Source: Fragilaria crotonensis
Taxonomy: Eukaryota > Bacillariophyta > Fragilariophyceae > Fragilariales > Fragilariaceae
Assembly: GCA_022925895.1 (NCBI GenBank)
Contig: JAKSYS010000648.1
Span: forward strand, 1-35,603
DNA: 35,603 bases
Direction of reading: 5' to 3'
Shown: positions 1-35,547 of the stretch, piece after piece
Layout of the letters: every line of letters starts with the position of its first letter
Position numbering within the stretch: position 1 is the stretch's first letter
The notes under the pieces: model-generated
The model's database searches: none
Told to the model about the DNA's origin: nothing
The model's input: only the letters and a program-made list of their open reading frames with translations
Translations under genes and position numbers: made by a program

Positions 1-2
1 AC

Positions 3-510
3 CAACTATACGGCAGTCCCCGACTTGTTCGAGCTCCAAGAGGCATGTGTCCGATTGTTCGTCAAGAGTCCATGACGTCCTCCGACGACATGATTTTGGT
101 GGACAAGGAAAAGACACCGATTCGAGTCTTTGAGGTGCCGCCTATGCGTTACAAGAAATTAATCGATTGAGGAATGATGGTCATAACATCCATGCGGCTG
201 TAGCATCTCGAACCGATCAAGAGGAATGGGCCCATGTGTGCATGAAGCATTTGCAATTGCCGGACAGGACAACTCTGAGTGATTGTTTCCAAGATCGGAT
301 CGAAATCGATTGTATGCGGGACAAGACGCATCACATACGGCGACTCGAGAAGAAAACTGGAATTCTCCATGAAATGTGCTTTTTGATAATGAACATTGGA
401 ATATTGAATGTGTTCGGAAGATTGGCGTTCTATCAATCTATACGCCGGATGGTATGACACGGAGTGCTTGGAAGGATGCTCTCAAAGCTTTTGGAATGCA
501 TGATTGGTAG
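3..510 (+). pseudogene. Magnesium-dependent phosphatase-1-like (HAD family) gene, 3' part, two frameshifts
   Basis: The conceptual product matches the C-terminal two thirds of the MDP-1/acid phosphatase class of HAD hydrolases, which dephosphorylate protein tyrosine or small phosphoesters. The left edge of the window cuts off the N-terminus with the catalytic DxD motif. Visible in order: a strand ending VFEVP, the HAD motif II region AVASRTDQEEWAH, the Lys-containing stretch DKTHHIRRLEKKTGI, the acidic motif FDNE and the ending YTPDGMTRSAWKDAL, which is typical of plant and algal MDP-1. These pieces lie in three frames: frame 3 to about 135, frame 2 to about 380, then frame 1 to the TAG at 508-510. 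The second shift lies in the T run at 380-384 and would be mended by one T; the first lies near 136-142. It converges on the receptor gene. It is either decayed or mis-assembled. Family assignment is fairly firm. Confidence 0.72.
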
Positions 511-761
511 CAAAGTATTTTATTGATAGAGTACAATCTATCTTGGTTTGCTCAAATCATCGATCTGACGAATGCCGTTCTTGGTAGTCATGCCTTGTTG
601 GAGCAAGTTTTTTTTGTAGTGCGGCACGACTCGAGACCCGAGCGCTTCACATTTCATCATATCCAAGTTACATCTATAAGCCTATAAAGAGGAAAAATGG
701 GATGAACCAAGATGCATAAACCGACCTCCTCGTTTTATCAAGATGCCCTTCTGAGAATGGC
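511..761. other. Short intergenic gap between convergent genes
   Basis: This gap lies between the 3' ends of the phosphatase remnant and the receptor gene. It contains no open frame, repeat or RNA signature that I can support. Confidence 0.5.
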
Positions 762-3551
762 TCAGCTCGTCACGTCGTATCTGCCAATTGTGTGGCTTAT
801 CGTACCTTCGCGCTCATCGCTGTCGTGGCCCAAGTTCGAACTTAAATCCTGCAAGTCGAGAGAGTCGAATCCTCGATTAAACTGAGAATTCTGAAAGGCC
901 GCCATTTTGCGCTCTCGTTCCATTGCTTTTTGAACCGCATCCGCTTGTTCTTTTTTCTTCTTCTTTTTCTCTCGTTTGGAGAGCTGAAGGCCTTTTGCGT
1001 ACTCTTCCGAAACCTTGCGACGGGCACGAATCGGAAAAAGATTAAACTAATCACTCCGATATCACTCCCAAATACAATCCAGGTGAGCGCATACCGAGCT
1101 GTCGTGTCGTCTCTCACAGCCGCAACAAGTGGGACACCAATCAGCAAGAGCACTGCAGCGTAAAGCGCAGCAAAGAAACAAGAACGGCGTTGACCAAACT
1201 TATCTTCTCGGGTTCGATTGGTCGTGTACAGGACAACAATACGGATGAGGAGTGTCGCGTGGCAAAGCGCAAGCGATCCCACAAAGACCCAGAATGGAAC
1301 ATGTCCCGTCGCAGTACAGAACCCGACTGTATCAATCGTTATCATTCCAGTATTCGGGTCCACAACTTCGGATACTGTCCAACGGGAATATTCCCTGGGA
1401 CTCAACAACGTCCACAGGATGCACACAAGTGTATTAAACGAAACTGTCATGTACAACGGCCAAGCAGATCTGGGTTCGACATACGAATGTATGTGAGGAT
1501 TCCACGCACGGCGTGATACAGGATAGGCAAGCCCAGCGACACTGCCCAGTTGGAGGCCCCAACCAATCGTGTAAAGGAAGGGTGTTATTTGACACCCGAC
1601 AGTTGCCAAAGTCGAGCTGGATCCTGTTCCAGCATCGAAGGACATGGTCATGAGGGATGTGGTGGATAACATTGCGCCGCCAGTCATTAGGAACATGTAA
1701 GTTCTGGAAGTCTTGACAATTTGGTCGTCCTTGTGGCGTAGAATCCATGCAAGCATCGAAAGTCCCACAGACCATGTGATACAGGCAAACATGAAGGCCA
1801 TGGATAGTAACGCTCTTGACAAGATGTTGTCGTCCGTCACTACGCATGCGGTCGCCCCTGTATCTTGATTTGTGGATGACCCTTCAGGACATGGAAGACA
1901 GGATGATCCGTTGGAAGGCGAATATGTATCAACGTCACAAGCAACGCATTTCGAAATCAATAGACTTGGTTCATCCTGGACCGCTTCGAGCGACACAGAG
2001 GCACCTGCTTCACAGGTCTCCAATGCGGGAGAAGGGATTACTATTGTTGAATCCGCTTCGCTCGATGGTGAGGTGCATTTGTTCTGTATCGAGTTGTTCA
2101 ATTGGGCATCGGGTAGCCATTGTGTTCCAGCCGGGTCGCGTCCGCTATTCTGCATTTGGTTTGCTGGTATGTAGAAGGGGCCAAATAATGTGTCGACCTT
2201 CAAGACCGTCATATTGCTTCGCAAGTTCTCATACCCAGTCTCCGAAGCAAAATCTTCATCCACAGTTGGAGTATCCACATTTCTGTTGAACCATTGAATG
2301 TGCTTTGAGAACAATGTCATGATGGAATAGCTTATTAGCATATCGTAGGTTCCTCGGTAGCCCAATTTCTGTTCCTGCTGGTTTAGGAAATCAGTACCAG
2401 ATTGGAAAAAGTCATCCACGTAGGAAAAGGAAGGATGCCATTGCGCAGCCCCTTGGATGTAGGGCACCGCGTCGGGGTTGTCCGTGGCCCACGTTTGCGT
2501 GGCCTGAGTCATCCACAGACTGACTGGTCGACAACCATTTTCCCTCCATCGGTTCAGCAGAACATCTTCGCTCCCACTGGTACACATGAAAATAGCTGGG
2601 AAAACGTCAGTCAGTGAGCCGGGTCCGCACACTGAATCTGCAAGGTCGATGAGATAATCGGCATCCATCGAATTGACAACAGTGTTGTTGTTGTCGTCCG
2701 CAAATGGATCAAATTTATAATCCACAGTGTCGTTGAATCCATATTTGTGGGCCAGATCAGAGATTGCCTGACATGTGGATCGAAAGAAATCCGGTTCCGA
2801 TTGATGAAAATTCGAACAGGCTGTCCCGACAGTCCTCTCTTGAGTTGTTGTTGTGACGACGATGCGTACAATCGCAACGCTTTGGGAGGAGTTCCGTAGC
2901 GATTGCTGCTCACATGAAAGCCAAAGACATAGGGATTGTCTGTCGTGTAAAAGTCGGTGGACCCACCTGTGCCACGAGGATGCGCTTGTATTCCAAGGCA
3001 ATCTGTCGTTCGTGCGCTGCCACAAAAGTACAGGTGCCCATAATATAATGTGGATTGAGGGTATCAATCATGGATTTGAGAATTGTTTTGTGGTCTTGCC
3101 CTTCTTGGTCATTATTATCGGCATCGGCAATGGATCCAGCGACAACCGCGACGAATCTAAATTGAACATAATGATCTTTCTTGGATCCTATTGCAGGTCC
3201 TCGACCATTGTTTTGAGAATTCAATAGCTCGACAGCCGTCGGAGCGCCATCTCTATGGTTGGAGCACTGAGGAGGCGTCACTTGAATCACAGTAATAAGA
3301 GGCGACGAGATCGACACATTCGACATTGAATCATTGTCATTTGTGTTATTGTAGGGTCCCACATCCCAAGCAATGCATGGGACTACAATAACAGATGGGT
3401 CCAGTGATGACATCTCCACGCTCGACAAATTACACGGCTTGAGATCATTGTAGGACAGAGACATTGAACTTGATTGCGCCAGCGTTGTTGTACTGCCACC
3501 GGTGTGCGATATCAGAGGCAGGGTCAGGGCGCAGGTACACACGGAAAACAT
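762..3551 (-). pseudogene. Family-C (GABA-B/mGlu-like) seven-transmembrane receptor with ligand-binding ectodomain, three frameshifts
   Basis: The start at 3551 gives a short hydrophobic signal peptide (MFSVCTCALTLPLIS). A periplasmic-binding-protein type 1 ectodomain follows, with motifs such as AVELLNSQNNGRGP, YIMGTCTFVAAHERQ and, in a second frame, TDNPYVFGFHVSSNRYG. A cysteine-rich stretch (CVACDVDTYSP to SSCLPCPEGSS) near 1840-1960 links to seven hydrophobic helices between about 1810 and 1030, including TYMFLMTGGAMLSTTSLMTM and FGSDIGVISLIFFRFVPV. This order matches class C GPCRs, which sense extracellular ligands at the plasma membrane. Frame changes lie near 2962-2964 and 2825-2827 (each mended by one extra G/C in a run of three) and near 1019-1025. 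Past the third, the alternative frame gives a far more plausible lysine-rich, coiled tail ending at the TGA at 762-764; the uncorrected frame stops at 842. It could be a pseudogene or a sequencing artefact in a multicopy family. Ligand unknown. Confidence 0.8.
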
Positions 3552-5262
3552 CGGCCAACAAAGTCGACTGCGATTGCCGTTGCTTTCTTCGTAATCTCTT
3601 GTTCACCATTGACAAATGCTAGAGTGATGATGAGTGGGTGAGCGTGTTTGTCCAAGTTGTGACTTTCGGGGATACTCGGACCTTTCACATTTCACACTGT
3701 GTCCGTCTTGACGAGGTACTGGTACATACAACGTACTGCCTGTTCTACCGGTAGTCTAGTGCTCGAGAAGTTGAGTAGGTCATTGAGTCATAATGTCATA
3801 GTTTCATGCGTCATCATTCATCATCATTCATCAGCATGCTTCATGGCGTCATGCTGTCGCTGCGTTCTAGGCTTGGATGACCAGGTACCGGTACTTTACT
3901 CCGTGTACCATTCTGCACGTAGGCATAAATGCATGTATGTGTTCCTACGATATGCATACAGATACGTACTACGTAGTACTTGTTTACTACCTGTAGTACT
4001 GGAGTACCAAAAGGCAATGTACGGACGCACACTCAGTTAAGTACTGTAGTACAGTGTTCAGTGTACCGAGCAACATGTAGCTACAGTACTGTATCATAGA
4101 TGCTAGATGCAGCATCATGGTACAAGTACATGGTACATGTATCATGTATCATATCGTTCCATAATTTGTGAGTAAAGCATTACACTGCTTACTGTCAAGC
4201 ATACATGTACCAGTACCACATAAAAATGGCTTGGAACCAATAGTTTCACAAGAGTTTCAAATTACTTTATCTCCGTAGAAACATAAATGTTTAACGAACA
4301 GTTCTTGTATCATTGACCCTTCATCTGCTTGTCAACAGCAATGTAGAATGATCAAAGTACTGGAGCAAGATCCGAATTGCCTATCGATGATATACAAGTC
4401 TTCATTTTTCATTTACTGGTTCAAAGTCGTGTATGAATATATATGCATGTATATATAATATTTTATACTCCGTTCTTAATATTTTTCACAAGAGTTTGAT
4501 GAGTAAATCGTCAATCGAAATTCGTATTGGTACAGGGTTTTGTACGAGCTGTTTGTACCACACAGTGTAGAACGAACGCCAAGTGGAATTCTCTCAAACG
4601 TATGAAAATATTCAGAACTGTAGCTTGTAGAAATTGGGAGGGCATCCTCGACATGTGAAAAATGGTCGTGCAACAATGTGTTGACGTCTCATCTACAGTA
4701 TGCATTTTTCAGAGAATTGAGTAATTGAAATGCTTTTCTATCAGCAGAACATATCTCTATTGGTAAACTAAGTAGAGCTTTATCATAGGTCACGGTGTGT
4801 AATAATGGAAAATGGATTGTTTTTGTGTAGAGTTCCTTGAATTTCACAAGAGATCGGTTCAAAGCTATTTTATTGGGCCAAGGCCATTTTTATGTGGTAC
4901 CACTAATTAGCATACCCGTATTCCCAACTGGGCTGTTCCGCACCTGTGGATTTAATTGGTGCAGCCGACCCACACGGATTCCACGGGTTCTGCACACACG
5001 ACATACAGGACACTTTCATGCTCTGCGAGACTGCGAGTCATGTCGGCATATCGATCATTCACGTTATATGCAGAGTTGCAACGTTGTAACCAGTCTATGT
5101 ACGGAGTATCAATCCAGTAACTACCGTAGCTTGAAGTTCAAAATTCAGGTGTCGATTTATTCGAGAGCACATGCTACCTCGCTTGAAGAACTAATTTGAA
5201 ATGTGCTTTTAAACTGGCGGACAAAGGATCCAGACTGCCAGATGGCTTCGTGCATATCTAAT
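3552..5262. other. Intergenic region upstream of the receptor, no gene recognised
   Basis: This 1.7-kb stretch is AT-rich and has only short random-looking frames. It holds the GTAC-dense block at 3716-4216, a TCATCAT-type simple repeat near 3811-3835 and an alternating AT tract near 4436-4466. The open frame at 4837-5199 starts from a non-ATG codon and its composition does not look coding. Confidence 0.5.
3716..4216. repeat. GTAC-dense palindromic block
   Basis: I count 20 GTAC tetramers in about 500 bp (for example at 3716, 3722, 3733, 3885, 3891, 3966, 3976, 3996, 4041, 4049 and 4207), about ten times chance expectation. Many are embedded in longer palindromes such as AGTACT and GGTACC. 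The block lies upstream of the receptor start. It may be a degenerate repeat or a cluster of protein-binding sites; nothing in it looks coding. Confidence 0.6.
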
Positions 5263-5586
5263 TAAAAATCGGAGAATTCGGTGTAGACGTACTAAGCATA
5301 TAAGTGATTAGTATGGAGTCGATCCTCAGAGTCGCAGAGTCATGCAAAGCTCGAGTTGGGCCCGGCGAATAAAAATTAATCCACAAGCAATGCACATAAA
5401 CAAAGTATAAATACCATGTATCGCATCTGCCATTCTTCCTGCAGGCCTGGTTGGTTGACACTATTTTTGTATCCAGTTTTCACGTCCTCAAAATCATACT
5501 TCTCAAATAAGAGACGGTGTACACAATATTCTGGTTATGGACTACATCGATGCAACATGAAAGTGCTCTTAACAATTACATGTGCT

Positions 5587-5593
5587 TGACGTC
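5587..5593 (+). promoter_or_regulatory. TGACGTC motif (CRE/bZIP-type) upstream of secreted repeat-protein gene A
   Basis: TGACGTC lies about 155 bp before the ATG of gene A, in a block conserved with copy B (7552-7558). TGACGT elements bind bZIP factors and mediate CO2/cAMP responses in Phaeodactylum; a role here is inferred from conservation only. Confidence 0.4.
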
Positions 5594-5746
5594 GGAGGAA
5601 CGCATGGAACGGCTCACCTCATTCAAAAATTTCAATATGTACGCCAGAGTTCGATGCAGTGTCACTCTGAAATCAGTCCCCATTATTTCAGCAAAAAATT
5701 AAAATTTGTTTCCCTCCGCGAAGTGATCACGTTCTTCTCCTCTACC

Positions 5747-6096
5747 ATGAAGCTCATCCATCTCTTCCTCATCTTAGGACTCTTCACCCAAGGTATCTTC
5801 GCAGCCGAGAACCAAATCCGGTCCCTGAAGGAAAGGGGACAACCACGACAAAGCGGGCCGTGACCTGAAGGGCGCCAAAATCTCCCGGGCCGCCAAAGTC
5901 GCCAAAAGGCCCTTCGGACCGTGATTTGAAGGGAGCACAAAAGTCGCCAGGCCCGCCAAAGTCGCCAATGGGCCCTTCGGGCCGTGACCTTAAGGGTGAA
6001 CCAAAGTCCCCAGGGCCACCACAATCGCCAAAGGGTCCTGTGCGCCGGGTCCTCAAGGGAGCGCCAAAGCCGAAGAGCAAGGGCGCACCTAATTAA
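5747..6096 (+). CDS. Small secreted Lys/Ser/Pro-rich repeat protein with RXL sites, copy A (frameshifted)
   Basis: The ATG at 5747 opens a signal peptide (MKLIHLFLILGLFTQGIFA, likely cut before AEN). In its own frame it stops at 5861-5863 after 38 residues. Downstream, one frame runs from about 5870 to the TAA at 6094-6096 and encodes about three 21-residue repeats of the form DLKG-x-x-KSPGPPKSP-x-GPSGR, then a tail ending KPKSKGAPN. Arg-X-Leu motifs recur at each unit boundary: RSL at 5819, RDL at 5859, 5920 and 5983, RVL at 6046. The spacing is 61, 63, 63 nt, so the first repeat lacks two bases and the frame is broken twice near the start. A signal peptide plus Lys/Ser/Pro repeats cut by RXL resembles silaffin or silacidin precursors; that role is inference. 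It is not a true Gly-X-Y collagen. The minus-strand frames here are shadows of the repeat. Confidence 0.6.
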
Positions 6097-6320
6097 GTGG
6101 ACTGGAATGAGTTTTCAAGTCCTCACCAATCAGGGAGTATCTTGTTGTCAACATCTAATTGATGGAAGACTGTCGGTCGTCTTGATTGTTTAGTGCGTTG
6201 CATAAGTTATTATGTCCACACGTGTTCTGTGTTCTGTATCACTGGCATCTTTGTAGATTTTTTGCTGATGATCGTACGACCATTTCTGCTACGGCGACCC
6301 ATGATCACAATGGTTTGTTC

Positions 6321-6689
6321 GAACCACTCGTGAAATGATCATGTACCTAAATCATCCCATCGCATATCATCAGAATTCAACAGTAGTCGGAGTGTGTTGT
6401 AAGAGTACAAAGTACAAAAACCTGGACCTTAAATTTTGCACGCTACCGCTTTGCCTGTGTTGTGGACATTCTACCAAAACGTCTAGAGACACTGCGGTGT
6501 TCAGATACCATCCAGTAGATATGTACCTTCACGAGTATAATCATTACACCAACCTTTGCTTAATTTGCCTCACATTTTGCCTGGATGTTTCTGCAGTTCT
6601 TTAATGCTCTCATGCAACAAGCTGCATACATCGCTAGCCAATTTCGATTATACCCGGTTGTTATTTAGAAGTGTTCCGTGATGTCTTAG
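6321..6689. other. Spacer between the duplicated units, left part
   Basis: No gene is recognised. A short plus-strand frame at 6335-6604 has no signal peptide or motif and looks like chance. Confidence 0.4.
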
Positions 6690-7200
6690 CACAATAGGTC
6701 CTGAACCCGAGGCTTAACAAATGCCCGCACATCACAGAACTCCCGCAAGGAGAATCGATCTTCTCTCTTGCAGCTCAAGTGCAAGACGACACGTCTGCTC
6801 CATGTAGCTCTTTGTTTCGCATCTCCCACAACCTGAACCACGGAGTCTATGTACTCCGGATGATTGTAGTTTGCCACCGGTGGCCAGTCCCTGTCTGAAT
6901 CTTCTGACAATTCACTTGCATGTCATCTTTCTTGCAACTCCATGTGGATCCAAATTGCGCTTGGAAAGGGTGCTCCCATCCAGTGGTATTTGGTTGCCAG
7001 ATGAGATGTTGATATGCCTGCGGGAAAACGCCTCAGGTCATCTGAGGCAAAACCTCATGTGTGCAAGGTCGTACACTATCTGTCTGCTCAGTTGTCGACG
7101 TCATGTTTTCGGTTGTGCACATGGCACCTGGATTGAACTTTGCGCTTCTGACTAGTGGACAGAGCTGCAGTGCCTGTAGTTCACCCGTAGATTCGAATTG
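6690..7200 (-). pseudogene. Possible decayed gene of unknown family
   Basis: On the minus strand three stretches read like coding sequence. One includes LCPLVRSAKFNPGAMCTTEN and runs down to about 7040. A second includes RRFPAGISTSHLATKYHWMG and runs to a TGA near 6920. The same frame then continues as SEDSDRDWPPVANYNHPEY to QDLLC, ending near 6686. One frame change and one in-frame stop separate them. I do not recognise the family. It could also be chance, since the pieces are short. Confidence 0.3.
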
Positions 7201-7551
7201 GCGTCATAAGATATGGTTTCAAAACTCGGAGAATTCAATGCAGATGGTGGTAGGTGGTACTACCCGCCATCTACCCATTCACTGACTCCTGCGGAATCGC
7301 GGAGTCGTGCAAAATTCGAGTTGGGCATCGCGTATAATCAATACAGAATCAATATCTAAATAATGAGACGCTTGACATACTTTATCGCAGTTGACGTTCT
7401 TCCTGCTGTTCTGGTTGGCTGATTTTACCTTAGTATCTACTTTTCACGTAGCATAAACCACACATCTCTAAAATAGATTGCAGTAGGCAAGAGGTGGTGA
7501 CAGAATGTATGTATTCAGCATGAGGGTTGAAATAAAACATTAACGTGTGGT

Positions 7552-7558
7552 TGACGTC
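7552..7558 (+). promoter_or_regulatory. TGACGTC motif upstream of secreted repeat-protein gene B
   Basis: This motif is the counterpart of 5587-5593. A second site in inverted orientation (GACGTCA) lies at 7643-7649, just before a TATAAA-like sequence. Both precede the ATG at 7744, at about -190 and -100. The bZIP/CRE interpretation is inferred. Confidence 0.4.
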
Positions 7559-7743
7559 TGAAGGAGATATGGGTCGGGTTTTCATTCAAATTTTTACGAG
7601 AAGATCGGGGATACTTTTGCATATGTATACATATCTTTCTCAGACGTCATTATAAACTCATAAACCCAACCCACCGTTTTTTCTCCTCACACTAATCACA
7701 ATTCGTACCTCTTTGCAAAGTGATCTCTCTCGTCTCGTCTGCC

Positions 7744-8147
7744 ATGAAGCTCATCAATTTCTTCCTCATCCTAGGCCTTTTCACCCAAGGTGTTGTCGCC
7801 GCCGAGAACCACGTCCGTGCCCTGAAGGGAGAACCCAAAGCTCCTAAGTCTCCAGGCCGCCAAAGGCGCCAAAGGTGGGTCCCTCGGGCCGTGATCTGAA
7901 GGGAGAACCCAAAGCTCCAAAGTCTCCAGGGCCGCCAAAGGCGCAAAGGTGGGTCCCTCGGGCCGTGACCTAAAGGAGAACCCAAAGCTCCAAAGTCTCC
8001 AGGGCCGCCAAAGGCACCCAGGGGGTCCTTCAGGCCGTGACCTGAAAAGGGAGCTGGAGCGCCAAAGTCTCCAGGGCCAAAGGGTCCAAAGGAGGCCCCT
8101 CGGGCCGTGACCTGAAGAAAGCGAAGACCAAGGGTGCACCTAATTAA
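7744..8147 (+). CDS. Small secreted Lys/Ser/Pro-rich repeat protein with RXL sites, copy B (frameshifted)
   Basis: The ATG at 7744 gives a signal peptide almost identical to copy A (MKLINFFLILGLFTQGVVA, then AENHVRALKG). The starting frame passes into the repeat (EPKAPKSPG) and ends at the TGA at 7897-7899 after 51 residues, because the CCAGGG of the sister repeats reads CCAGG near 7853. Restoring the repeat register gives 25-residue units of type GEPKAPKSPGPPKAPKVGPS followed by GRDLK. RXL motifs are RAL at 7816 and RDL at 7890, 7964, 8036 and 8106. Copy A's tail is matched by KKAKTKGAPN and the TAA at 8145-8147. Units are four residues longer than in copy A. Both copies share the 3' flank AATTAAGTGGA. 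A function as a silica-associated or cell-wall peptide precursor is inferred from architecture. Confidence 0.6.
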
Positions 8148-8370
8148 GTGGATTGGAATGAGTTTTCAAACCGTCACCGATCAGGGAACACACCCAGTTA
8201 CTGGTTAAGGTATTAAGAAACACCTGTTTCGTGTCACTAATATCTTAGAGTATTTACAGTATTCTTGCTGATGAGCGTTTGAACTTCTCACTCATGCGGT
8301 GACACCTTGCTCCCAGTGGTGGACACCATCAATTGCGTGACGATTCGTTCGAACTCCACAACACGGCATA

Positions 8371-9024
8371 CTCCGACCTGCTCGAATTAGTGTATCTTGT
8401 GCAGTGCAACAACATGATTTTCCTGATGCATCAAGGATTCATACGGCCACACCTCTGCACATCGATCCAGTCAGGAGTCAGGAGTATACTCCCTAAGAGC
8501 ATCGCCACCGGTTCAGTAGCGCTTTTAGAAATCTATTTTCGTAGGTTTCCGTCCTTTTTCGCACCAGTGCCTCGTTTTTATTATTAGCGTGTTGTCGTTT
8601 TCGCGCCGATATCACGCTAAACTTTATATTTTACATATGGCGAGTATATGTATGACTACATTCCTAATGCTACTGTTGGTCTACATTCTACATACCTGAT
8701 GCTATATTACATTGGTTAACGTTTTCGCGGAGAATTTTCCCGCTAGATACTCCGGAGAACATCCTCGAATAAAAAAATACGGTAGATACTATCCACAAAA
8801 AAATGCAGTCCAGTAGCAAATACCGAACGCGGACCGGAGTACTAGTACCGGTACAGTGTAGTTCACGAATTAAGATCGAAAATACGTTTCAAAACTCCCG
8901 AAAATAGTTATTTCAGTATATTTTCAGGAAAACATTGAGGGCAGCTCCGGACTCCAGACAGACGACAATCGACGGACGGCACTCATCCCTATCCACCACA
9001 AACAACGTTCGGACGGAATTGACC
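8371..9024. other. Intergenic region upstream of eIF3k
   Basis: No gene is seen. The last 200 bp hold GTAC/TACTCCG-type motifs (8748, 8835) and presumably the eIF3k promoter; no clear TATA box is visible. Confidence 0.4.
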
Positions 9025-10027: not shown

Positions 10028-13000
10028 TTAAATCTTCTCACTGAACGATCTTTCCACGTCGACGAGCGACTGAGGAGAGACAAGACTCACAGCGTCCTCC
10101 ATGCTCTTGTGCACAGACGTGATCTTGCGACGTAGAGTCTTGGCCAGATCTTGAGGAACAAACAGTGATTTGCACATGAGCATACCGAGTCCCAGATCAG
10201 AGTCTGTCACAATGGCGTTGGCAAATCGCGAAAAACTCTCGTCCACGTTGCCTTTGGAATGCTCCGTATCAATAAGGTACCAAAACTTGGCAAGACAGAA
10301 GAAGGCACCGTCGACATCTTCCAATTCCAAGTTTACCATGTTATCAAAGAGCGCCTCCCAAACAACGTGGCAGAAGTTGGCATTACGTTCCCCGTTCAGC
10401 AGTAACACTCTCTCCGAGGTCACCATGATTATGAGTGGAGTTGTATTCACGTCAGCCTGGGTATCTCCCTTGGTATTTGATCGAAGGTGGACATTTTCGG
10501 CATGGAAGACATAGCCTTCTCCAAGGTGCTGACCAGCTCGAACCCGGGATAACAAGGCTTTTCCGGCGTTTTCACCCTCGACGTACTCCACCAGAAGTTC
10601 CTTGCCATCAACATGGGCAAAAAGTCGGGGATTGCGTGTACGAGACGCCAAGATGCCGTCAGGTTCTCGGTACCGAAGCGACGAGGCAAAGGAAGAGAAA
10701 ACCAAACCCCATGTGCGACACGAAGACGCCATCAGGAGAATTGGCTTTCTTAGTAGGGCTACGGATACGCCTGTCGCCTGGTCGGCGAACTCCTTTCGGA
10801 ACGAAGGAGCTGTCGTGGTCGACTTTGTCATCACATCTTTGGGAATGTTGTCAAGCCAAACGTCTTCGGCAAGGGAACACCAGAGTGAAGCGGCGTCGAA
10901 GAAGGACGCAAATGCCTCTCTTGTGGTATAGACAACGGCTCGAATGAGAAACGTGGGCTTGAAAGCGAGTCCAAACACCGTATCGAAGATGCGCCAGACG
11001 CTGATATAGTGATGTCCGATGCCTTCTGCAATGTCCTGTGCAGTTCCGTACACATGATTCGAGGTGAACGATCTGAGCACGACAGGAAGTGACTCAAAAG
11101 TCAATGCAGGCCGAAGAATTCCAGGAAGACCAAAGAATGACTTAGGTAACGCCCCAGTCCAACTAATCTCAGTCTTGACGTTCGATATCTTCACCTTGTT
11201 GATGTGAAGCTTTCGCTCGCCAAAGCGCCGATGTGAGACTGCTTTCTGTGGTTCGGGCCTCGTTCCTGCTGCTGGTAACCGCAGCAAACCAGATCCAGCC
11301 TTTATCTTCGCAGCTACTGCGGCTGTCGCGAGGAAAGTTTTTCCAGCGTCTGCCAAGTGGTTGGGCAGTAGTTGGGGGGATTGAGAGTTCTTTCGTTCCG
11401 AAAAGTAGTCAATCCTCAAGACACGTCTGATTTCTGCTTCTAGCCAGTCGTCTCCCCGAGGGGCATTCGACGGTTTGTCGGTGATAGGATGCAACATCAT
11501 ATTCACAAGGTGGTTGACAACAGCCCCATCCACCCGTAATGTGATGGGATCAATCGACAACTCAACGTTCGTCAACAGCATGAGACCACCCTGGTTGGCT
11601 AGGGCACTTGAACATCCAAACTCAAAAGCATGGTTTCGTCGACGCCGACCAGCAGCTTGTTTTCGCCCAATCTTCAGAAGCACCGGATAAGGCGTGACCC
11701 AGAGCTGATTGTCAATAGATAGATGTCCAACTGTGACGGAGAATCGTTCATGAGCCTGGTCAACAGTTCTCTCGATGATTATGTTGTCTATGCTGACGTA
11801 CAACAATTCCTTTGGTGTCCAATCAACAACGCTGATTCCAATCCCGTGGAATAGTCTAACTTCAATCGAAGATGGGACAGTTAGAACTCCGTCCTTTCTC
11901 GACATGGTGTCAGTTTGTACAGTGTCGTCGTCGAAAACGGTTGCCGGCATGTTTGCATCGGTGAGTCGAAGCACTCGAGTAGGCCCATCAGCAACAATTT
12001 CTCCAACGATTACGCTGCTCGACAACTGCAAATTCGAGCCAGGTGCTATCTTTTCCAGGGCAACTGATCCTAGTGTGTTCGACGCAGTGCGACCTGTTGA
12101 TCCCCTCTCTTCAAATTCGATGGATATTGCTCTGCGACCTTCGTCAGGTTCGTCCCAAGCGAAGTCAACGTGTTGGTACGGAAGAAGTGTGCTATCCAAC
12201 GAAAGATCGGTGCTTTGCCAGCTGAGCTTCTCGCGACCAATACTGAACTTAGACGATTGTCCGTACCGAAAGGCATACATAGTATGGTTCTCTAGTCGGA
12301 ACGGTGGCTGGCTTGCATTCCGGAAAACAAGAATGTTTGCGGGGGACTTCGAGCTCGTCAAACATTCCACGGTGGCGACAATGATCTGTCCTCGCAGCTT
12401 ATGCACTAACCGTACTGTGACTTCTCGCCGTTTCTTGACGGTACTGATCTTTCCAGACCACAGCCAACCGAATTCCTTGGGACGAAAGCGTATGGGATCG
12501 GAATCGTCAAAATGGAATGGAACTTGATTGCCTGATGCTTCGATCGTAATCGGCTCCTTTTCGCCGTGCCCAGCGATGATTTCAATATCTCGTCCCATTT
12601 CATTTATAATCTTGTATCGGCTGAATATATGAATAATTTTTGTTCCGTGAAGACCGCCGCACTTCGAAGGAGCCTTGACCACTTCGTAACGCAAAGCTAA
12701 GGGCTCCAAAATGGACGAATGTGGACCACCCTGGTCAGGGAAACCGGAAGGCGGGAACACAGTTACTTCATTGAACGTGTTCTCAGTCGTTTGTAGAGAA
12801 AAAGGTTCACACCACGACGACGTGTACTGGGACATTCCTCGATTGTCTTGGTGGAATCGGGTTTGTCTTTGCCTCATCGTCAATCGAGAAGCCCGCTCTT
12901 GGCCAATCATTAACACTTCAAACGACAGACGTGCAGAATCGGCATCGAATTGCTCATTCCTCACAAGGTCCGCAAGCCCGAGGCACGACCAAGGTTCTGC

Positions 13001-16000
13001 TTTCCCGTTTTGCAATCCCGATTTAGGCAGTGCCCTCATGGCTTGACCCGCGATAGGCTTGTTCGACAAAAACTCCAAATCCAAACCGCTGCTGTCAACA
13101 ATCCAGTACGGAACACTCACCCTCACAACTCGATGAGCTTGATCCAGAAGGGATGCAAATGATCTGATATCTTCTTGCCCGAAGTCGTCATTCTCATTGA
13201 CACCAAGACCTGCGCGAACGTGCACAGAGAGTGCCAGCGGGGTGCCTGCTTCGTCATTTACCGTCATGGATGATGACGGTTCACCGGCATCCCTATCACG
13301 CCTAGAAGTCGTTTGTGGCAATATCGTAGCCACAGTACTCCAATCAGGAAATTGTTCAGAACTCTTGTCTCTCACGTCCAATAGCTTCACTTTTATCTCC
13401 ACCTCTTGGGACGCTTGTGCACCAGTCCACCGAACAGACTTTCCGCAACTGACGATGCCAAGGTCGGTCCAATTTTCTTCGTCGACGTGACGGTCCCATG
13501 ACTCCATAGCTTTCTCCATCGGTGCTACGAGCCCAGCAAGACTCGAGGAACTTCCGTTCGCCAGTCCGACAAGATTTGACGAACTCACGTGAACACTCCG
13601 TACAGATTGGACCTTTCGGCGAACCTGGACATGCATCAGAGCTGGGAGTTGGTTCACAACTACAAGTGGCGCCCTCAAAAAGAGCATTCGCTGCTCAGGA
13701 ACAATTGATGCTGTCGGCTTCCTAGTGTTCGCTCTGGTCCGAGATGCAGATGCAACTTCAAACGAGCCGAGTCTTAACGAGCACGCCGAAAGAAAGAATA
13801 ACTTTGTTTCTTCGCTTGAAATTGCCAAGAGGCTCAGCTCGGCCTCCGCAACAAGGCCCCTTGAAATGGAACTTCTCGAATAGGGAAGCGGTGGAACAAC
13901 GGCGCAGGCAGGTGATAAGGCGTCGTTGTTTGGCCGCGATTGAATACGCCCAGCAAGTGCAGTCAGCGAGAGGGTTGCCGAAGCGGAATCAATCAATGGT
14001 AACAAGTCAGCCGGAACAGGATCTGTTGCCCGAATTCGGTCAGATTCATCGTCGACTTCGCTGATCATTGGTATCGTTGAACTCCATAATTGGACAATCC
14101 CGTTCCTGTCCCGCACCTCGCAATGCAGATCTTGCTCCGTAGCATTACACAAAACCATCGGCGATTCAATTGATACCAGTTTGATACCACCCTTGAGCGA
14201 AATCCTAACAATAATTTTCCCCACGGCTGCAGTTCTCTTGTGGACATTTTGCGACAACAGTTCCGTGTTCTCATAAAAGGAAACGTCCTGGACGCCGACG
14301 GCGTCAACTTGAATTCTTCCGAAAGCCTTGTAGAAGAATGTAGTGGAGCGTGAGCCCTTGGAAACGTTATACTTCGAATGGTCTACCCGGTCCACAGTTT
14401 CCTCGAAACTACCAAGCTCGAGGGTAATTTGAGCACGGTGAGGGTCACACGACTGCGAAATCGCTCTCCTCAAAGAAAGCGGGATTTCGCGTCCGCTTGC
14501 CAAGGTGGTTGGTTTCGGTTGCTCTCCTTTTCGCACCCGGTCAGAATCCAATACTTCCATGAAGCGAATCGTCTTAAAGGAGATTAGTAATGAGAGTAGC
14601 GAAATACGTGGCCACTTCCTTGCAGCAACTTACCAGGCCGGTTTCATTCCTGATCCAATGAGGGATAATTGCACTTGTATCTGATGTGCCCGTCATGTAC
14701 GTCGCCAGATTCTCAATCAGGGCTCCGGTGAAATTAATATTAAGAGTTTTCGTGTCTCTCAGACAGCACTGTATTGCTGGATCCCGCGAGAGAGGTGCCT
14801 TCTCACCCCCAGCGAAACCAGGATGACCGAATTGCTTCAGCCATTCCATTCGCCTAGTCCCGGGAATTCGCATCACGCTTCTCTGCGTTGCCTCCTGCTG
14901 GATATTGAGTTCGTTCGATGTGCTGGGGAGTAGTGCTGCAGAAATAAGGGACGGGGCCAGAGCCACGAGAAGGAGGTAAGGCATATCCGACGCACATTTC
15001 ACATTCTCCGCGCCACGGTCAGATTGCTTATTTGCAAACGGCGAACCGAAAAGCTTCCGAATATCTCGAAGAGTTTCGCCTGCGTCAGGAACAAAATTCA
15101 TCCCTGATGTCGACCGTCCCTTCGCGGGAGCAGCAAGAGCGCTATAGTCTCGCAGGGACGGCGTGACATCAAGAACGCGCACCAAATCGACACCCAAGTT
15201 CGCTCCTGCAGTCCATTGCTCAATCAGTGGCTCCCATGCCACCAAACGCCTATTGTGGTAATGTGCAGAAATATCCACATTGAGCCATCCACCCACGGTC
15301 ACGTGAGATACCCTCGATTGGCCAAGCTGAAAGATTTCCTTCCCGGCGGCCTCCCCTCGCAGCGCTCCGGAGATGGCGAGTAGAGTTGCTCCACGAGGAG
15401 ATTGCTGCTCAACGATGGCGGGAACATCTATCGCAGCAACGCCAACCCTCGCGTTCTTCATTACGAACTGTACTATCGGCGATTCGGTGAGACGAGTTGC
15501 GCCTCCTGGTACCAGTGTGACTTGGAAGCCCTTTACTGTGGCTGACCCAACAGTCGAAGCTCTCTTGATCAAGGCCGCCAAAGTCTTTCCGAATTTTCCA
15601 TCACCTGTGTTAATTTTTTGATATGCGCGCTGAGCATCTTTCAGGGAGGATACAATAGGTGCGAGTGTAATCCGATGCGCATCGCCCATGCCACCAGCGC
15701 TTGATCGGATGTATACAAGCACATCTACCGTGTCGGCCTTCAATTCGAAAGCATGCGCCAGCTCCATATCGTCCAATGGTTCGCCGTGCTGAGACGACGA
15801 AACAGATGTACCAAACAAGCGATGATCCACACTGAAGTTGATCGGATTTGTAATTCGTTGTTCACCAGCTGTTGGTGGGACAACAGTGAAAACTGCAGGC
15901 ACATCGCCCGAGTCGCCGGCCGCAGACATCGTAGCTTTCGCCCTCTCAACGCAAGTTCTCAAGGCTTGAAATTCAGTGACCTGTAAGTCAAGGTGAATTG

Positions 16001-19000
16001 AGATAACTCCTCTTTGAGCGCTATGGGCTAATGTTGTATCATCCTCTTGTGATTTCAAGAACTCCATCGTATGTAGTTGGTTCTCAGAAAATCGCTGCAG
16101 GGTTTCGATGACCTTTGCATGGTCCTGCATTTTCGAGTTGCCAATGATATCAGCCGTCGACGAAAACTCCATAGTTGAGGGTCCGGATGATCTCACGAGA
16201 GCAATGAATCCCTTTAAAGTAGACGCCCATCGAAACGCAACGACGTTGATCGATTCCTCTGAACTGTCGCGAACATGATCAAAGATGTTCCGCGACGATA
16301 GGATGCATTCAAACCCTTCGGTTTCAAATGTGAGGTGTACTAATACTGTCTCACGTGGCCATGCCACGCTTTTCTGGACATGTGTAGGGAGCGGCGTCGT
16401 TTTGGGAGCATCCATTTGCCAAATATCCTTGACAATGGATAGACACGAGTCGATTAAGGACGGCAGCGGCAACAGCTGTATTTCCCCCCAAATAAGCCGC
16501 ACATCAAGCATCAGGAGAGCCTTTTGTCTTCGAAGTGACACCTGCAGTGTCAGAAATACATCCGATCCTTGCTTGCCTTTGTTCTGATTCAGTCCCACAG
16601 CACGAACACCAGGATGCATTGACAGGTCATGCACCATAAAATTACAAACTCTCATAGAGGCGCTGCAATCTTCCCTATTTCCAGATACTTCAACCGACCA
16701 GCCTGAAACAGCGATTGAGAAAAGAGGCCGTGCGAAGGCGATCCCCGCTCTCGCAGCACTGGGAGAGTCCTTGGAAAACTTCACCTCAAAGTCAGGCGAC
16801 TCAAAAACAACAATGCCCTCAATATTGAGTTTCCGGGGCTCCCTTCTCACAAGGTTTCTATGGTTGCCAGTCTGTAGATTAAAGATCTTCTTATAGCTTG
16901 CATGGGTTTTGAGCAAAAGGATCAGGATTGAGGACGATGCATTCAACCTGATCGGGGACGATAAAAACGAAATTTGGAGTTTCAGTCCGTCTCTTGTTCC
17001 TGCCGAATAACATGAGGAAGCGACGAATGCTCTACACTCGGGAAGGAGCATTTCAGTTTCCGACCAATATGAGGTTGATGGTAAATCGATCCTCTCCAAC
17101 ATCGAACTTGGCTCCAAGTTCGATGATAAGTCGCTTAAGACAGCTGCCATGGACAACGCTGATCGCTCAAGGATTGGCCAACCGTCCAACGAACGGACGA
17201 CAGAAACATCGTACATAGATGCCCGGATAACAGGCAAAGGGTGGCTTTCACTGGATCTGTGCTCCGCACACAACCGCAGTGACAGCATCAGCTGCAGTGC
17301 ACTATCAGACATTTTTGCCACATCAATGATGTCACCGCGAGCACTAGGAATCACGACCGTAGTTTTCTGGATAGCAACATCGACTCGCCATCTGACTGCG
17401 ACATCATTCCGTAATTTAAGTGCCTTGGACGGGCGCTTAGGCCCTTCGGATCCCGAGGTGCCCTTGAGAAGACTGAGACAACGCTGGAGACCCTCGTTGT
17501 GTGGCACGATTTGGATTGGTTGCACCCGGATTCCCAAATGGCAATCGACTGCCATATCTTCGGGAGTTGTGGCAACCTGTTCCTCCTGGATTTCACTACG
17601 ACCATATCCGACGGCCCAACCATCGACTTGCGACCGTGGCGTGCAACTGATACGAAACCGTGATCTCACAACCTGCCCGTGGTGATCCTTCCTTCCCAGA
17701 AACTCTTTCGGGGAAGAGCCGACATCATCAGTACACCCATATACCTGAACATTTCCACAAAGAGTATCTATCTGAAGGCGAGTAGTTATTGGAGAAAGCT
17801 CCAAACTTGTCCGCACTCCAGCATCTGTCAAGACGATGGCACCGACGAGAGGCAAGCTGGAATGGTCATCCCAGACACACATTCGCAAGGATGAGCATCG
17901 AAGATGCAAATCATGAACTAGCGAAGACATGTTTCCAACGCTTCTTGGTCGCGTCAGCTCGTTCACCATGTCGCTGAAAAAGCTGGATTTCGGTTGGGTA
18001 ATCTCGCCTTGGTTAATAGACTCAGCGTTTCTCTTCACGGCGTGTACCAATTTTGTCACCGCAGGGAACAAGGATGCCTCTGGACTAAATTCGATCCCAC
18101 CCAGAATGATTCGTCCCTTCAACGAAACTCCTTGGCGGCCGTGTCGTATGAAGTCAACAGCAAGCCTCAAGAAGGGATCAACCTCAGGAGAAACCAGCCG
18201 ACTGAAGATCCTAGCACTAGTGGGGCCTCCAGCACGAAGTAGCTCTCTCCGCCTGCCATCCTCTTCGTGCGATACACAAAGAAGATCCGTTCCGATAAAA
18301 ACCTTTGAGTCTCGTGATCGATGCAATAAGGCACAGGAAACATGAGATAGCTGAAAATCGTAAGTCGAGCGTTCGTCCGTGTGTGATCTGCTTTCCAACT
18401 TGGCGCAGAAGCTCTTCACAACAATGGATCCTTGGAAAAACTCTCGATTCAAAGGATTGATGTCGGTAGGGTTTGCGTCCATGTCTTCAATGAGAGCGCT
18501 CCTCTGCCGTCTAAAACGCAAAATTGATTTTGCTTTCACAGCGGCCATTTCCTCCTGCTCTCGTCCTTCGGGATGGGGATGCTTAGACTCGTGGGCGAAC
18601 GCATCAGAAGACTCGTCGTTCACGTCGATTTCAACAGTCTTTTCTAGGTCATGGAGGGATGCTTTCATGGCACGCAGTTCAGCCTTGGCTCTCTCAAGAG
18701 AAACCTTGAGAGACCGACGCTCGCGGCGTTTGCTCCTCGTCAGATGTTGCTGGATGGATTCAAGGGAAAACGCATTTGAATTGGAGAGTTCGAGCAGCCT
18801 TTTCTCCAAGGCAGCCACTTCATTCTCTGCCAAAGCGATGTCCTCTAAAAGGGTACTGACCAACGCAATCCTTCCTCCGAACGAGATTGCGGAATGAAAC
18901 GAATCAGCATCACTGTCAAGATCACTGTCTTCGTCTTCTTCGCCACGGCCTTCTTCTAGTCGAGCGAGGTTCTCGGCGTTTAAATACACTGCACCAGCGC

Positions 19001-22000
19001 GTTTCGGAGCGCGCTTGCGTGACCCGTCAGACGTCGAGGAAACATCTGAATGAGATCGTGCACGTCTTCGTTGTTGAGCAGATTTCAGGGACTGATCGTC
19101 TCCATTCAAAACAGTCTCGGCATCCACGGTCCATTTGTCTTCGGACCAAGAAGTTTCTCCGTCATCCTCAAAGACATCCAAAAATTCGTTCTCGTCAACA
19201 ACGCTTGACGTCTCCGAAAATTCCTCGCGGAGCGGTTTCACTTCTGCCTTGATCTCACTCATAAGCTCGTCGTGTAAATTACGAGATCTTTCATCACCTC
19301 GCCACACAAACATATCTGGCGAACGACTTTGACTGGCCATACTCATGGATCGTTTCCAGGCGTTCGCGATACCTCCGATCTCGTGGACACTCCATCGAGA
19401 TGCGGATAGTGCAATATCATTGACCATCGCTTGCGCTTTGAATCTGCAATGGGTGAGATCGGAGGGTATCACGGACGACGACAACGAAACAACCAGATCG
19501 AAGTCGGACAAAACGTCATCTTTGCGGTCGTCCCTGGGTTCGAGAAGGTAGATCCTTGTTCGGGACAAGTGTATTTGAAACTTATCGTAGAAAGATGTGT
19601 GTCCTGACTCAGCCGCGATCGTGCGATCGCCGTTGTATTCTGATACGGTCGAGCGAAAAGTAAATCTTCGAGCTTCTGACCCAGCAACGCTTGCCGCGCC
19701 GTTCAGGAAGAAGTGGTCAGCACCAAACTTCGGGCTTGACGGCAACGTCATGACCGTTTGACCGTCCATGGAAGGAGCAAGGTACAGTGAATTTGCGTCG
19801 CCGACACTTCCATCCGTTCTTTCAGTCGTTGACGTTACTCGCCCACTTTTCCGTCGCGAATTTTGGTGAGATGCCGAAGCGGCACTGCCCCTTTCCTCAG
19901 GTTTCGCTTCCTTAAATGCATAGTTCAACTTTGCGAGAGCTACCCCGGCCAGACTTTCTGTCGCAAGGTGTGCCGTACCAAGGTCAATCATGAGAGTGCA
20001 GTCTCGGTCGCCGTGAAAGCAAATTACCGGGCAGTTTATTCGAACATCCAGGTCAAGGTTCTTGTGCTCACTAAGAGCCCTTGCACTCCGTCCAAGCCAC
20101 CCAGCTCTGTCCGAGCCAAGTTGCGATAGCGCAACATTTTGCCAATATTTCGAGGAACTGATCTCGCCTTTTGACGGGATAAGATCTCGAATCCGATACA
20201 TCCATTCACTATCTGGAGTGAGATTAACTTCGACAGCATCGAAACATGCATGGAAGCCAATGTCGTACTCAGGATGGTCAGGTGGGTCGCTCGTGATTTG
20301 AACGTAAATCAATGGGTTGCTTGGACTGTCCATGCCATCATTTGAATCCATATCATCGTTGCTATGTACCCTCGAAACCACAATACACTCCTTCTTACTA
20401 CTTGAGCGGAGCTCGGAAGTTGTAAAGTCATCCAACGACAGAGTCAGCTGATAAGATTCGAAATTTCCCATAAGGTCCAATTCAGAAGTAAAACGGTGGA
20501 TGCTGATATTCATGAACTGCTCGTGTAGTCGCCGGTATTGTTGCACTTGATCCGAAGTCGATTCCAGGGCTGCAAACAACGACATGCATCCACGTTCCAG
20601 GTGGACTCGAATTGACAATGCCACGCGGCTCTTGTCCTCCGCCGACAACTCGGCCGACTCTGACGCAGTCTCAAGGTAGGCAAGCAGCCTGTCGCACTCT
20701 CGTTCTGATTCAGCATCCTCCTTGGCAGCGGAAGAAATCCATTTTCGTAATCCCGAGCGCTTCTTCATCTTCTTCGAAGAAGTCTCCACACTCCCAATGA
20801 TTCCGGCCAACCTTGCGTTGACAATTGCTCGGTATAGGATAATATCTCGCGTGGAAAGATCACCACGAATACCATCTTCGATTTCAACAAGCTCAGCAAG
20901 TTCTCGCTGCGAGAGACCACGAGGGGCTTGTATATAGGAAGCCGAAACGTCCAACGTTGGATCATCGCCTTGGTTCGGTGTTCCACTTGCTGACTCTCCT
21001 TCGTTTGCCTCGTCCGTCACATGAATAGATCGAATAGAGAGTGATTCAAGAGCTCCGGTCGATTCTTTTCGAGGAAGCGTCAAATTGGAAGGATATCGAC
21101 ACTGACGTTCATACAAATCGCAATACCGCCGTCTCATCTCGTAGCGTTGATGGAATCGACTCCACGACCATCGCATTCGCGATTCTCGAAGTTCCATACG
21201 GACCACCTTGGCAGCATACCGCCACCAAGCTCGAGGACTCTCGAGTGGTGGTACTTGTGGTCGGTACGGGCGGTACTGCTTGAAGAAGACATGCTCCTTC
21301 ATGGCAGATGTCAGGGCGATAATACCGGCGGCTTGAAAGTCCCGAATATGGACGGAAAGATCGTCAATGGTGATGGAGCAGACAAAACTTGGGCGTTCCT
21401 TCAGATTTCCGGGCTTTGTGGATAGTGCAGCATGACATGTGGCATCGACTGGTCGCAAGAGATAAGTGTGCATCGGAGCATAAAATGCAGCACCGACTCT
21501 TGATGGTGACGCCAAAGCACTGCCTCGGCGGGCTATACACTTGTTGAGCGCCTTGCCCAGATTCATGGGCGGCAAATTCTTGACGTGAAGAACAGACATT
21601 TCGACTGGTAAGCTCTCATCATAGTCGATTGCATTCCAGTATACTGCAAAATGATTTAATTGACCTTCTTTTTGAATGACATCCAATCCATCGCAATCTT
21701 CTTTGTATGATTCATCTTCGGCTTGAATGTGAATACTCTCGAGAGTAATCCCACATGCAAATGGATTCATCGGATCGGACAAGACATCCTCGAGTCTGAC
21801 ATGAACATCTCTGATATGAATATGTAGTTTTTCCATAATATCTTTGAGAATCCCTTCTGTTATACGCTTCTGAAGTAGTTTGGATAGCGATTGTGTTTCT
21901 TTCCTTCCGTAGGACTCGGAATCTGCCAGGGCATTGCGTCTTGATGCGATTGCACTTTTGCGCATGGCTTCGTCGTTGTAATCATAATTGGTCCGCAACA

Positions 22001-22307
22001 GCAAATGAACCCCATCCAAAACGACCACAACCACGGCACCATCATCATCGGTGGCAGATGTCCCCAGTTTCGCCCAGGGGACCGTAATTTCGAGTGATGT
22101 AATTGAACCAGATACCATCTCCACGCCCGTGTTTTGCAAGAGTTCATTGACAACATCTTTTCGGAATTCCAAATGATCCAACGAGATGTATCCACTCCAG
22201 ACACTGAGTTGTGCAGACTTGTGTGGCGACACTTCATCTTCCTGATTTTGAACAAAGTACTTGGAAAGGAAGCCATTTAAGAGCTTGCCAGCTAAACGTT
22301 CGAACAT
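10028..22307 (-). CDS. VPS13: VPS13-family bridge-like lipid transfer protein (about 4072 aa, one intron)
   Basis: Exon 1 is 22307-14634 (2558 codons) and exon 2 is 14572-10028 (1514 residues plus stop). The N-terminus MFERLAGKLLNGFLSKYF with LSVWSGYISLDHLEFRKDVV is the chorein domain (residues 1 to about 120), followed by the long beta-groove of repeats that conducts phospholipids between membranes. At about 1100-1225 there is an acidic linker and a predicted coiled coil. The VAB/SHR-BD region covers roughly 2700-3300 (IFSRYKIINEMGRDIEI near 3190). The C-terminal ATG2-like helices include SWTGALPKSFFGLPGILRP near 3690, and a PH-like end with LFAHVDGKELLVEY lies near 3875-3970. A FFAT-like motif sits at 1041-1047. 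Length fits the family (3100-4400 aa). VPS13 acts at organelle contact sites. The coding sequence is free of frameshifts over 12.2 kb. Confidence 0.95.
14573..14633 (-). other. Intron of VPS13 (61 nt, phase 0)
   Basis: On the minus strand the donor is CTG|GTAAGT, a branch-like TTACTAAT lies near the 3' end, and the acceptor is CTTTAAG|ACG. Unspliced, the frame stops after NLL. Splicing joins NETGL to TIRFMEVLDSD in frame, matching the W/F-rich start of VAB repeats in the family. Confidence 0.85.
19167..19187 (-). other. FFAT-like motif codons within VPS13
   Basis: Codons 1041-1047 read EFLDVFE, preceded by VDEN and followed by DDGE. The FFAT core is EFFDAxE with acidic flanks and binds VAP proteins of the ER. 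The match is 4 identical plus conservative changes, in a disordered acidic linker where such motifs lie in other VPS13 proteins. Binding is inferred. Confidence 0.45.
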
Positions 22308-29164: not shown

Positions 29165-29384
29165 TGAACGAATATGATAGCGGTACGGTACTACTGACTG
29201 AGAGGTACTGTACAGGTTCGAACTAGCCGTTAGTGTGCGATGGTGTTAGCGATAGTGATAGCGTGGATGTGTGCGTCTATATGTGAGAAACGGCGCACTT
29301 ATCTTAGGATTGTCTGTTTTAGCGTTTACCTCTATCTTCTCTTGTAAGTACCCATGGCAGCGATAGCGCAGCGTAATTTATACA
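29165..29384 (+). repeat. 5' LTR (220 bp)
   Basis: It begins TGAACGAATATG and ends TTTATACA. By direct reading it is identical over its whole length to the LTR at 35328-35547. It contains GCGATAGTGATAGCG and a GTAC-rich start. Confidence 0.95.
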
Positions 29385-35327: not shown

Positions 35328-35547
35328 TGAACGAATATGATAGCGGTACGGTACTACTGACTGAGAGGTACTGTACAGGTTCGAACTAGCCGTTAGTGTG
35401 CGATGGTGTTAGCGATAGTGATAGCGTGGATGTGTGCGTCTATATGTGAGAAACGGCGCACTTATCTTAGGATTGTCTGTTTTAGCGTTTACCTCTATCT
35501 TCTCTTGTAAGTACCCATGGCAGCGATAGCGCAGCGTAATTTATACA
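35328..35547 (+). repeat. 3' LTR (220 bp)
   Basis: It is identical to 29165-29384 base for base. It is followed by CTAT, matching the CTAT before the 5' LTR. Confidence 0.95.

Follow-up and report, generated by a model that had tools for sequence, protein, structure and literature searches.

A five-locus family of putative RXL-processed secreted repeat precursors in the diatom Fragilaria crotonensis

Introduction

Several diatom biosilica proteins carry an Arg-X-Leu (RXL) triplet. In the available part of one account, RXL is placed at the C-termini of repeats and after the signal peptide of silaffin-1, frustulins, cingulins or silacidins. Sil1p of Cylindrotheca is described there as a protein with a signal peptide, RXL and repeats that end in RRIL/RRNL, a terminus missing from the mature peptides, and pleuralin as one that joins a Pro-rich region to Cys-bearing PSCD repeats (PMC4557024). 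SAPs and silicanin-1, in the excerpts at hand, have RXL after the signal peptide. According to the accessible text of another study, RXL sites come so far only from biosilica-associated proteins, and cleavage there is hypothetical and remains to be proven (PMC5647440).

The known silica-forming peptides have almost no sequence in common between diatoms, and they are therefore sought by composition (Ser, K-[S/G]-[S/G]-K). Silaffin screens in the field use a threshold of 18% Ser, and cingulins are defined as Tyr- or Trp-rich proteins. One silaffin screen, as outlined in the available text, looks for repeated KXXK with X being S or G (PMC5501833).

We analyzed a stretch of 35,603 nucleotides of Fragilaria crotonensis DNA (the window, contig C611), in which an initial annotation had pointed out a tandem pair of genes for secreted, silaffin/silacidin-like repeat precursors. 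The genome that we searched comprised 62.1 Mb in 881 contigs.

Results

Two repeat genes bounded by RXL

We translated both copies in all frames and located the following features.

5747..6096, + strand: copy A, gene of a secreted RXL-bounded repeat precursor, ATG to TAA, frame interrupted (from translation and the counterpart C349:8986-9352)
5747..5803, + strand: signal peptide of copy A, 19 aa, cut placed by eye after GIFA, aligned with the four other loci
5819..5827, + strand: first RXL of copy A, RSL, residues 25-27
5859..5867, + strand: RDL of copy A
5920..5928, + strand: RDL of copy A
5983..5991, + strand: RDL of copy A
6046..6054, + strand: RVL of copy A
7744..8147, + strand: copy B, gene of a secreted RXL-bounded repeat precursor, ATG to TAA, interrupted in the window and intact on C349
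7744..7800, + strand: signal peptide of copy B, 19 aa, cut placed by eye after GVVA
7816..7824, + strand: first RXL of copy B, RAL, residues 25-27
7890..7898, + strand: RDL of copy B
7964..7972, + strand: RDL of copy B
8036..8044, + strand: RDL of copy B
8106..8114, + strand: RDL of copy B

Copy A reads MKLIHLFLILGLFTQGIFAAENQIRSLK, followed by units that end in RDL, RDL, RDL and RVL, and copy B reads MKLINFFLILGLFTQGVVAAENHVRALK, followed by RDL four times. Both have a hydrophobic N-terminus, RXL at residues 25-27 and then Lys/Pro-rich units bounded by RXL. Every site listed in the initial annotation (RSL, three RDL and RVL in A; RAL and four RDL in B) was present in the all-frame translation, and its tandem pair of secreted precursors was supported, with the signal peptides judged by eye. 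These had been called near-identical; they are similar, and the wording is generous for 76% identity over 29 residues that include the first RXL. Tandem Repeats Finder gave periods of 63 nt (copy A) and 74 nt (copy B). On the near-identical contig C349, successive RXL sites lay 21, 21 and 21 aa apart where A could be read, and 25, 25, 25 and 24 aa apart in B, so that the proposed unit of 21 aa holds for A, and the 25 aa proposed for B becomes 24-25 aa.

Broken frames in the window and on a near-identical contig

Neither copy is a single open frame in the window: A spans three frames and B several. These breaks, together with two open antisense frames in the window (113 and 122 aa), would fit pseudogenes, a low-complexity artefact, or a long antisense frame as the real product, a reading that we consider very improbable. 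On C349, copy B is an uninterrupted frame of 136 aa (C349:14570-14977 plus stop), and copy A is broken once, by a frameshift that separates signal peptide and repeats and is partly common to the window. The initial annotation was to fall if the frames proved broken in several strains and no intact paralogue existed; copy B of C349 and the members on C147, C329 and C582, described below, are open.

C349 is colinear with window positions 1-4106, 4897-7623 and 7618-8411, with identities of 98.2, 99.4 and 98.4%, respectively. We counted 27 indels in the three blocks, 8 of them within the copies (2 in A, 6 in B) and 19 outside. Since 22 of the 27 are deletions in the window, its extra frameshifts look like consensus errors in the window contig, which fits these differences better than decay. 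Consensus error would also fit the denser indels within the copies and the 7 substitutions recorded there (5 of them in ten bases beside one gap).

Both contigs carry insertions absent from the other, in a haplotype-like manner. The match ends at window position 8411 (C349:15245) and is not taken up again over the 40 kb that remain; because of this stop, C349 and the window may be either haplotypes or a segmental duplication. One insertion interrupts colinearity close to copy B.

7618..7623, no strand: site of the C349 insert of ~3.58 kb, placed from the colinearity break and the boundary sequences, ~120 bp before the ATG of copy B

The insert itself (C349:10862-14449) has ends that match in inverted orientation over 13 bp. 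It carries frames of 339 and 330 aa on the minus strand and appears transposase-like by eye. As it lies near the start codon of the intact copy B, and as copy A is frameshifted on both contigs, the A-B pair, if not the family, may be partly dead.

Other features were observed on the two contigs. An insert of ~680 bp at window 4214-4896 has inverted ends CACATAAAAATGGC, and its empty site lies near position 8137 of C349. A minus-strand frame of 741 aa (window 842-3067) matched Ephrin_rec_like just below cut-off (22.9 vs 23.1 bits). At window 10028-22307, two minus-strand frames that adjoin each other (1510 and 2577 aa) matched VPS13_VAB and VPS13_N; they probably represent a single VPS13 gene interrupted by an intron or frameshift. 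Identical direct repeats of 220 bp (window 29165-29384 and 35328-35547) surround an RVT_2 match at 33796-34893, and the whole looks like a recent LTR retrotransposon. On C349, an inverted repeat of ~1.5 kb (46419-47959 and 53548-55048, 95.6% identity) reaches the contig end and is possibly an assembly fold-back.

Five loci form one family

A genome search with copy B, by a method that may miss matches, returned 13 matches at E<=1 (16 scored candidates), confined to C349, C611, C147, C329 and C582. Three further members are open, with 171 aa on C147, 189 aa on C329 and 263 aa on C582. Searches with the other members and with the N-termini gave the same loci plus weak matches on C357 (E 0.0106 and 0.229 with the C582 query, 3.47 with the C329 query), C34 (7.73) and C647 (1.3). 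An alignment of the N-termini of all five loci spans 29-30 columns and has R25, L27 and K28 invariant.

RXL stands between units in four of the five loci, and the units themselves differ (GPPKSPK, GPSKGTMM, TNTTKLPKG). Examples of unit peptides are KGAPKSPGPPKSPKGPSG in A, KGEPKAPKSPGPPKAPKVGPSG in B, TKGEPKIPGPPKGTMMGG in C147 and KGAVKATNTTKLPKGVKPT in C329. One boundary of C329 has lost its Arg (GDL). In C582 there are 11 lysine-rich KAPKATKEPKE repeats with no RXL in between; its RXL triplets lie near the N-terminus, at residue 50 and near the C-terminus. The gene family is real, its RXL boundaries are conserved and its peptides change. We also observed that the C329 gene has an in-frame stop (downstream of 1288), after which ~22 codons of similar sequence are open (SDLKNDSKAQKATKVPKDPSPS).

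None of four members scored over cut-off in a Pfam scan, and a PDB sequence search with copy B gave no match at E<=0.1. Among viral contigs, the copy B search found 25 pattern-matching stretches and no relative. In the 300 bp upstream of the five loci, no 7-8-mer was common to four and no 9-10-mer to three, and thus no common regulatory motif emerged. No description of a GPPK/RXL family was found in the open-access literature searched.

RXL is retained between diverged paralogues

In the mature region of B there were 5 RXL against 0.22 expected (5000 shuffles, p = 0.0002), a test in which the units are copies of one another and hence not independent events. All five Arg and all five Leu of this region fall within an RXL. 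Chance at this composition does not account for the sites. Because the units are not independent, retention between diverged paralogues is better evidence than the shuffle test. The boundary triplets were RXL in 27 of 28 cases (A 5, B 5, C147 7, C329 8, C582 3; the exception is the GDL of C329), a count that leaves out the inter-repeat junctions of C582, which have no RXL. The X was D, A, E, G, T, S or V, and the Leu was written with five codons over 26 counted sites. When units were anchored on RXL by hand, all fixed letters of RxL(T)KGxxK (R, L, K, G, K) were identical in 4/4 and the other columns varied. Tandem R-[G-codon residue]-L-K occurred 10 times in a genome-wide search, each time within A, B or C329; the control gave 1.

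It had been claimed that RXL stayed while the repeats evolved. Across diverged paralogues, RXL was indeed kept while unit length and content changed. Within the repeats the claim holds for A, B, C147 and C329 (with the one loss); it has to be narrowed in that KGxxK is conserved as well and that the junctions of C582 are without RXL. The same annotation would have yielded to RXL being no more conserved than the rest of the repeat, and RXL was found among the few invariant positions, together with KGxxK.

At the unit boundaries of family members we saw neither a recurrent dibasic site nor a recurrent RXXR, and Kex2-type processing was rejected for want of the former. RXL is also a cyclin-binding motif; we set this meaning aside in view of the signal peptide predicted for these proteins.

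These proteins could also be uncut, disordered structural or adhesive surface proteins, possibly glycosylated, in which RXL is a spacer and not a cut site. Dipeptides of the SP/AP/GP/VP/TP type are abundant (15 in A, 21 in B), C329 has 7 N-x-S/T sequons (six NTT, one NAT), the long region of 11 repeats in C582 lacks RXL, and AC3362 of Amphora, in the part of the source available, has a Pro- and Lys-rich repetitive region (PMC4220933). We nevertheless judge such proteins improbable, as 27 of the 28 boundary triplets retain both R and L while the immediately preceding residues vary, and the first RXL stands at residue 25 in all five loci beside the signal peptide, as excerpts on SAPs and silicanin-1 describe.

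Selection on the units

We compared the units within each gene in the sense frame. The pN/pS was 0.11 in B (3 units), 0.20 in A (3 units, after the frameshift), 0.36 in C147 (5 units), 0.42 in C329 (3 units) and 0.34 in C582 (10 units), the unit pairs not being independent. The value for C329 leaves out a fourth unit of shifted register, with which it was 0.56. As judged from these ratios, the units have been under purifying selection, and values of 0.11-0.42 (0.56 with the shifted C329 unit) show the frames to have been protein-coding.

The antisense frame that shares third positions had a pN/pS nearly as low (0.31, 0.25, 0.52, 0.43 and 0.31), and in C582 it was below the sense frame (0.31 against 0.34), which speaks for an antisense product. 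Against an antisense product, pseudogenes or an artefact, the sense value was the lowest of the three sense frames in 5/5 loci and of all six frames in 4/5, signal peptide and RXL are conserved between loci in the sense frame, three paralogues and copy B of C349 are open, and the indels of the window are biased towards deletion relative to C349.

Composition departs from known silica proteins

We then compared the mature regions with known silica proteins. The Ser content was 10.3% in part 2 of A, 6.9% in B, 4.0% in C147, 1.2% in C329 and 9.1% in C582, and the net charge was +14, +20, +22, +35 and +3, respectively. K[SG][SG]K was absent from all five, and so were F, W and Y. KXXK with any X was enriched in B (p = 0.033), C329 (p = 0.032) and C582 (p = 0.0002), and unenriched in C147 (1 vs 2.5 expected, p = 0.94) and part 2 of A (2 vs 2.7, p = 0.81). 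Pentalysine clusters (5 non-consecutive Lys in 12-14 aa) did not occur in part 2 of A, B, C147 or C582. C329 had 4 matches with adjacent lysines allowed, at least one of which (KGEAKVPKPKNATK) was without adjacent lysines.

The layout corresponds to that described for Cylindrotheca silaffin-1. In all five loci the N-terminus is hydrophobic and the presumed cut (by eye) has small residues, and R25-x-L27 adjoins the signal peptide in each, as RXL does in silaffins. An RXL triplet ends each repeat, as in Sil1p, in A, B, C147 and C329 (with one loss), and does not in C582.

The "silaffin/silacidin-like" of the initial annotation fails on composition: the units are Ser-poor, without K[SG][SG]K, and basic, not acidic. 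By these composition tests, a silaffin was rejected at 1-10% Ser and no K[SG][SG]K. A silacidin was rejected since the charge is basic, or near neutral in C582 (+3), and not that of an acidic Asp/Glu/Ser-rich protein. A cingulin was rejected for the lack of aromatic residues and of K[SG][SG]K. The mature regions have no Cys, so the PSCD repeats of pleuralins are not there. A genome search with a silaffin repeat peptide, run with no positive control, gave no match.

A pyrenoid linker of the PYCO1 kind is scarcely credible. Plastid-bound diatom proteins are expected to have Phe after the signal-peptide cut, and it is absent in B, C147 and C582. PYCO1 is likewise a basic, mostly disordered tandem-repeat protein of a diatom, but its binding, as stated in the available text, needs aromatic residues in KWSP and GTGYNP (PMC10288592), and the mature regions of the family have none.

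Silicon transporters

The genome gave 19 Silic_transp matches, 18 of which were over cut-off. According to the part of the source available, Parmales have 1-2 and diatoms 3-8 silicon transporter genes (PMC10328945). By this contrast, the transporter matches point to a diatom. For the ice-binding family PF11999, neither the genome nor the controls gave a match. Two loci have silicon-transporter domains in tandem in one frame: three domains at C97:29749-33762 (1456 aa) and two at C771:21664-24330 (1008 aa). Another match, at C349:33494-34817, lies ~18.5 kb from copy B, beyond the end of the match with the window.

Discussion

Copies A and B belong to a five-locus family whose members are probably RXL-processed multi-peptide precursors. 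We lean towards the fuller statement that these are RXL-processed secreted peptide precursors with a role in the silica cell wall; for the silica role, we rely on the layout of the precursors and on the silicon transporters of the organism. The signal peptide would take the chain into the ER. An R-X-L endoprotease would then remove the N-terminal pro-stretch and cut at the unit boundaries, as the conserved RXL and published precursors suggest. This would release several short, disordered Lys/Pro-rich peptides of ~15-22 aa, for example the unit of B given above. By analogy with silaffin-1, their lysines, possibly with modified side chains, may bind to silica or to polyanions in the cell wall.

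The predicted released peptide differs between members: Pro-Lys in A and B, Met/Thr-Lys in C147 and Thr-Lys with N-glycosylation sequons in C329, while C582 is predicted to be an uncut zwitterionic Lys/Glu array. It is a tentative idea, which we hold less readily than its opposite, that one cutting code (RXL, then KGxxK) is kept and the released peptide is exchanged among members.

The same precursors might be cut at RXL and yet yield peptides for signalling, pheromone or antimicrobial use, with silica uninvolved. Multi-peptide precursors in general have this layout of signal peptide, pro-stretch, tandem similar peptides and one cutting site. The peptides are cationic and Pro-rich, with a net charge of +14 to +35 in four loci, and the paralogues differ strongly in unit content, as defence or recognition peptides do. 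We regard this use as unlikely, since the boundary motif RXL is described, in the sources as available, from biosilica proteins and no Kex2-type dibasic site recurs. Moreover, C582 is nearly neutral, and the low pN/pS within genes does not suggest rapid diversification of units.

If the peptides of our preferred reading, RXL-processed precursors of the cell wall, are indeed cut and reside in the shell, what evolution preserves would be the cutting site rather than the peptide, with RXL periodicity as the better search key. If they lie in silica, these Ser-poor, Pro-rich peptides would break the K-[S/G]-[S/G]-K rule, and screens built on it would miss a whole class. The family would also offer natural substrates for the proposed RXL protease, as short peptides with one type of site, and natural variants for work on it, with the site loss in C329 and C582 without inter-repeat sites.

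Among described proteins, we compared the family with four, each on the basis of the available parts of the sources. The silacidin precursor of Thalassiosira pseudonana is highly repetitive with RXL at repeat ends, like the family, and is cut into short peptides, as the family would be. Silacidins, however, are acidic and Ser-rich, whereas the family is basic, with C582 near neutral (+3). The cingulins and SFLPs of T. pseudonana are likewise secreted and Lys-rich with RXL present, and some SFLPs and TpSil1 also have Pro-rich repeats (PMC5501833). They use K(S/G)nK motifs, in contrast to the family, which has none and no aromatic residues. AC3362 of Amphora coffeaeformis, a cell-wall protein, has a signal peptide, such as is predicted for the family, and a repetitive Pro-/Lys-rich region like the family, but is Tyr-rich, while the family lacks aromatic residues; RXL is not named for AC3362 in the available parts (PMC4220933). 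Sil1p of Cylindrotheca fusiformis has a signal peptide, such as is predicted for the family, and has in common with it an early RXL, basic tandem repeats and an RXL-type triplet at each repeat end. The family differs from Sil1p in having no long acidic domain before the repeats, and in units of Pro and Lys with little Ser and no K[SG][SG]K. In summary, the family is new in sequence and known in layout.
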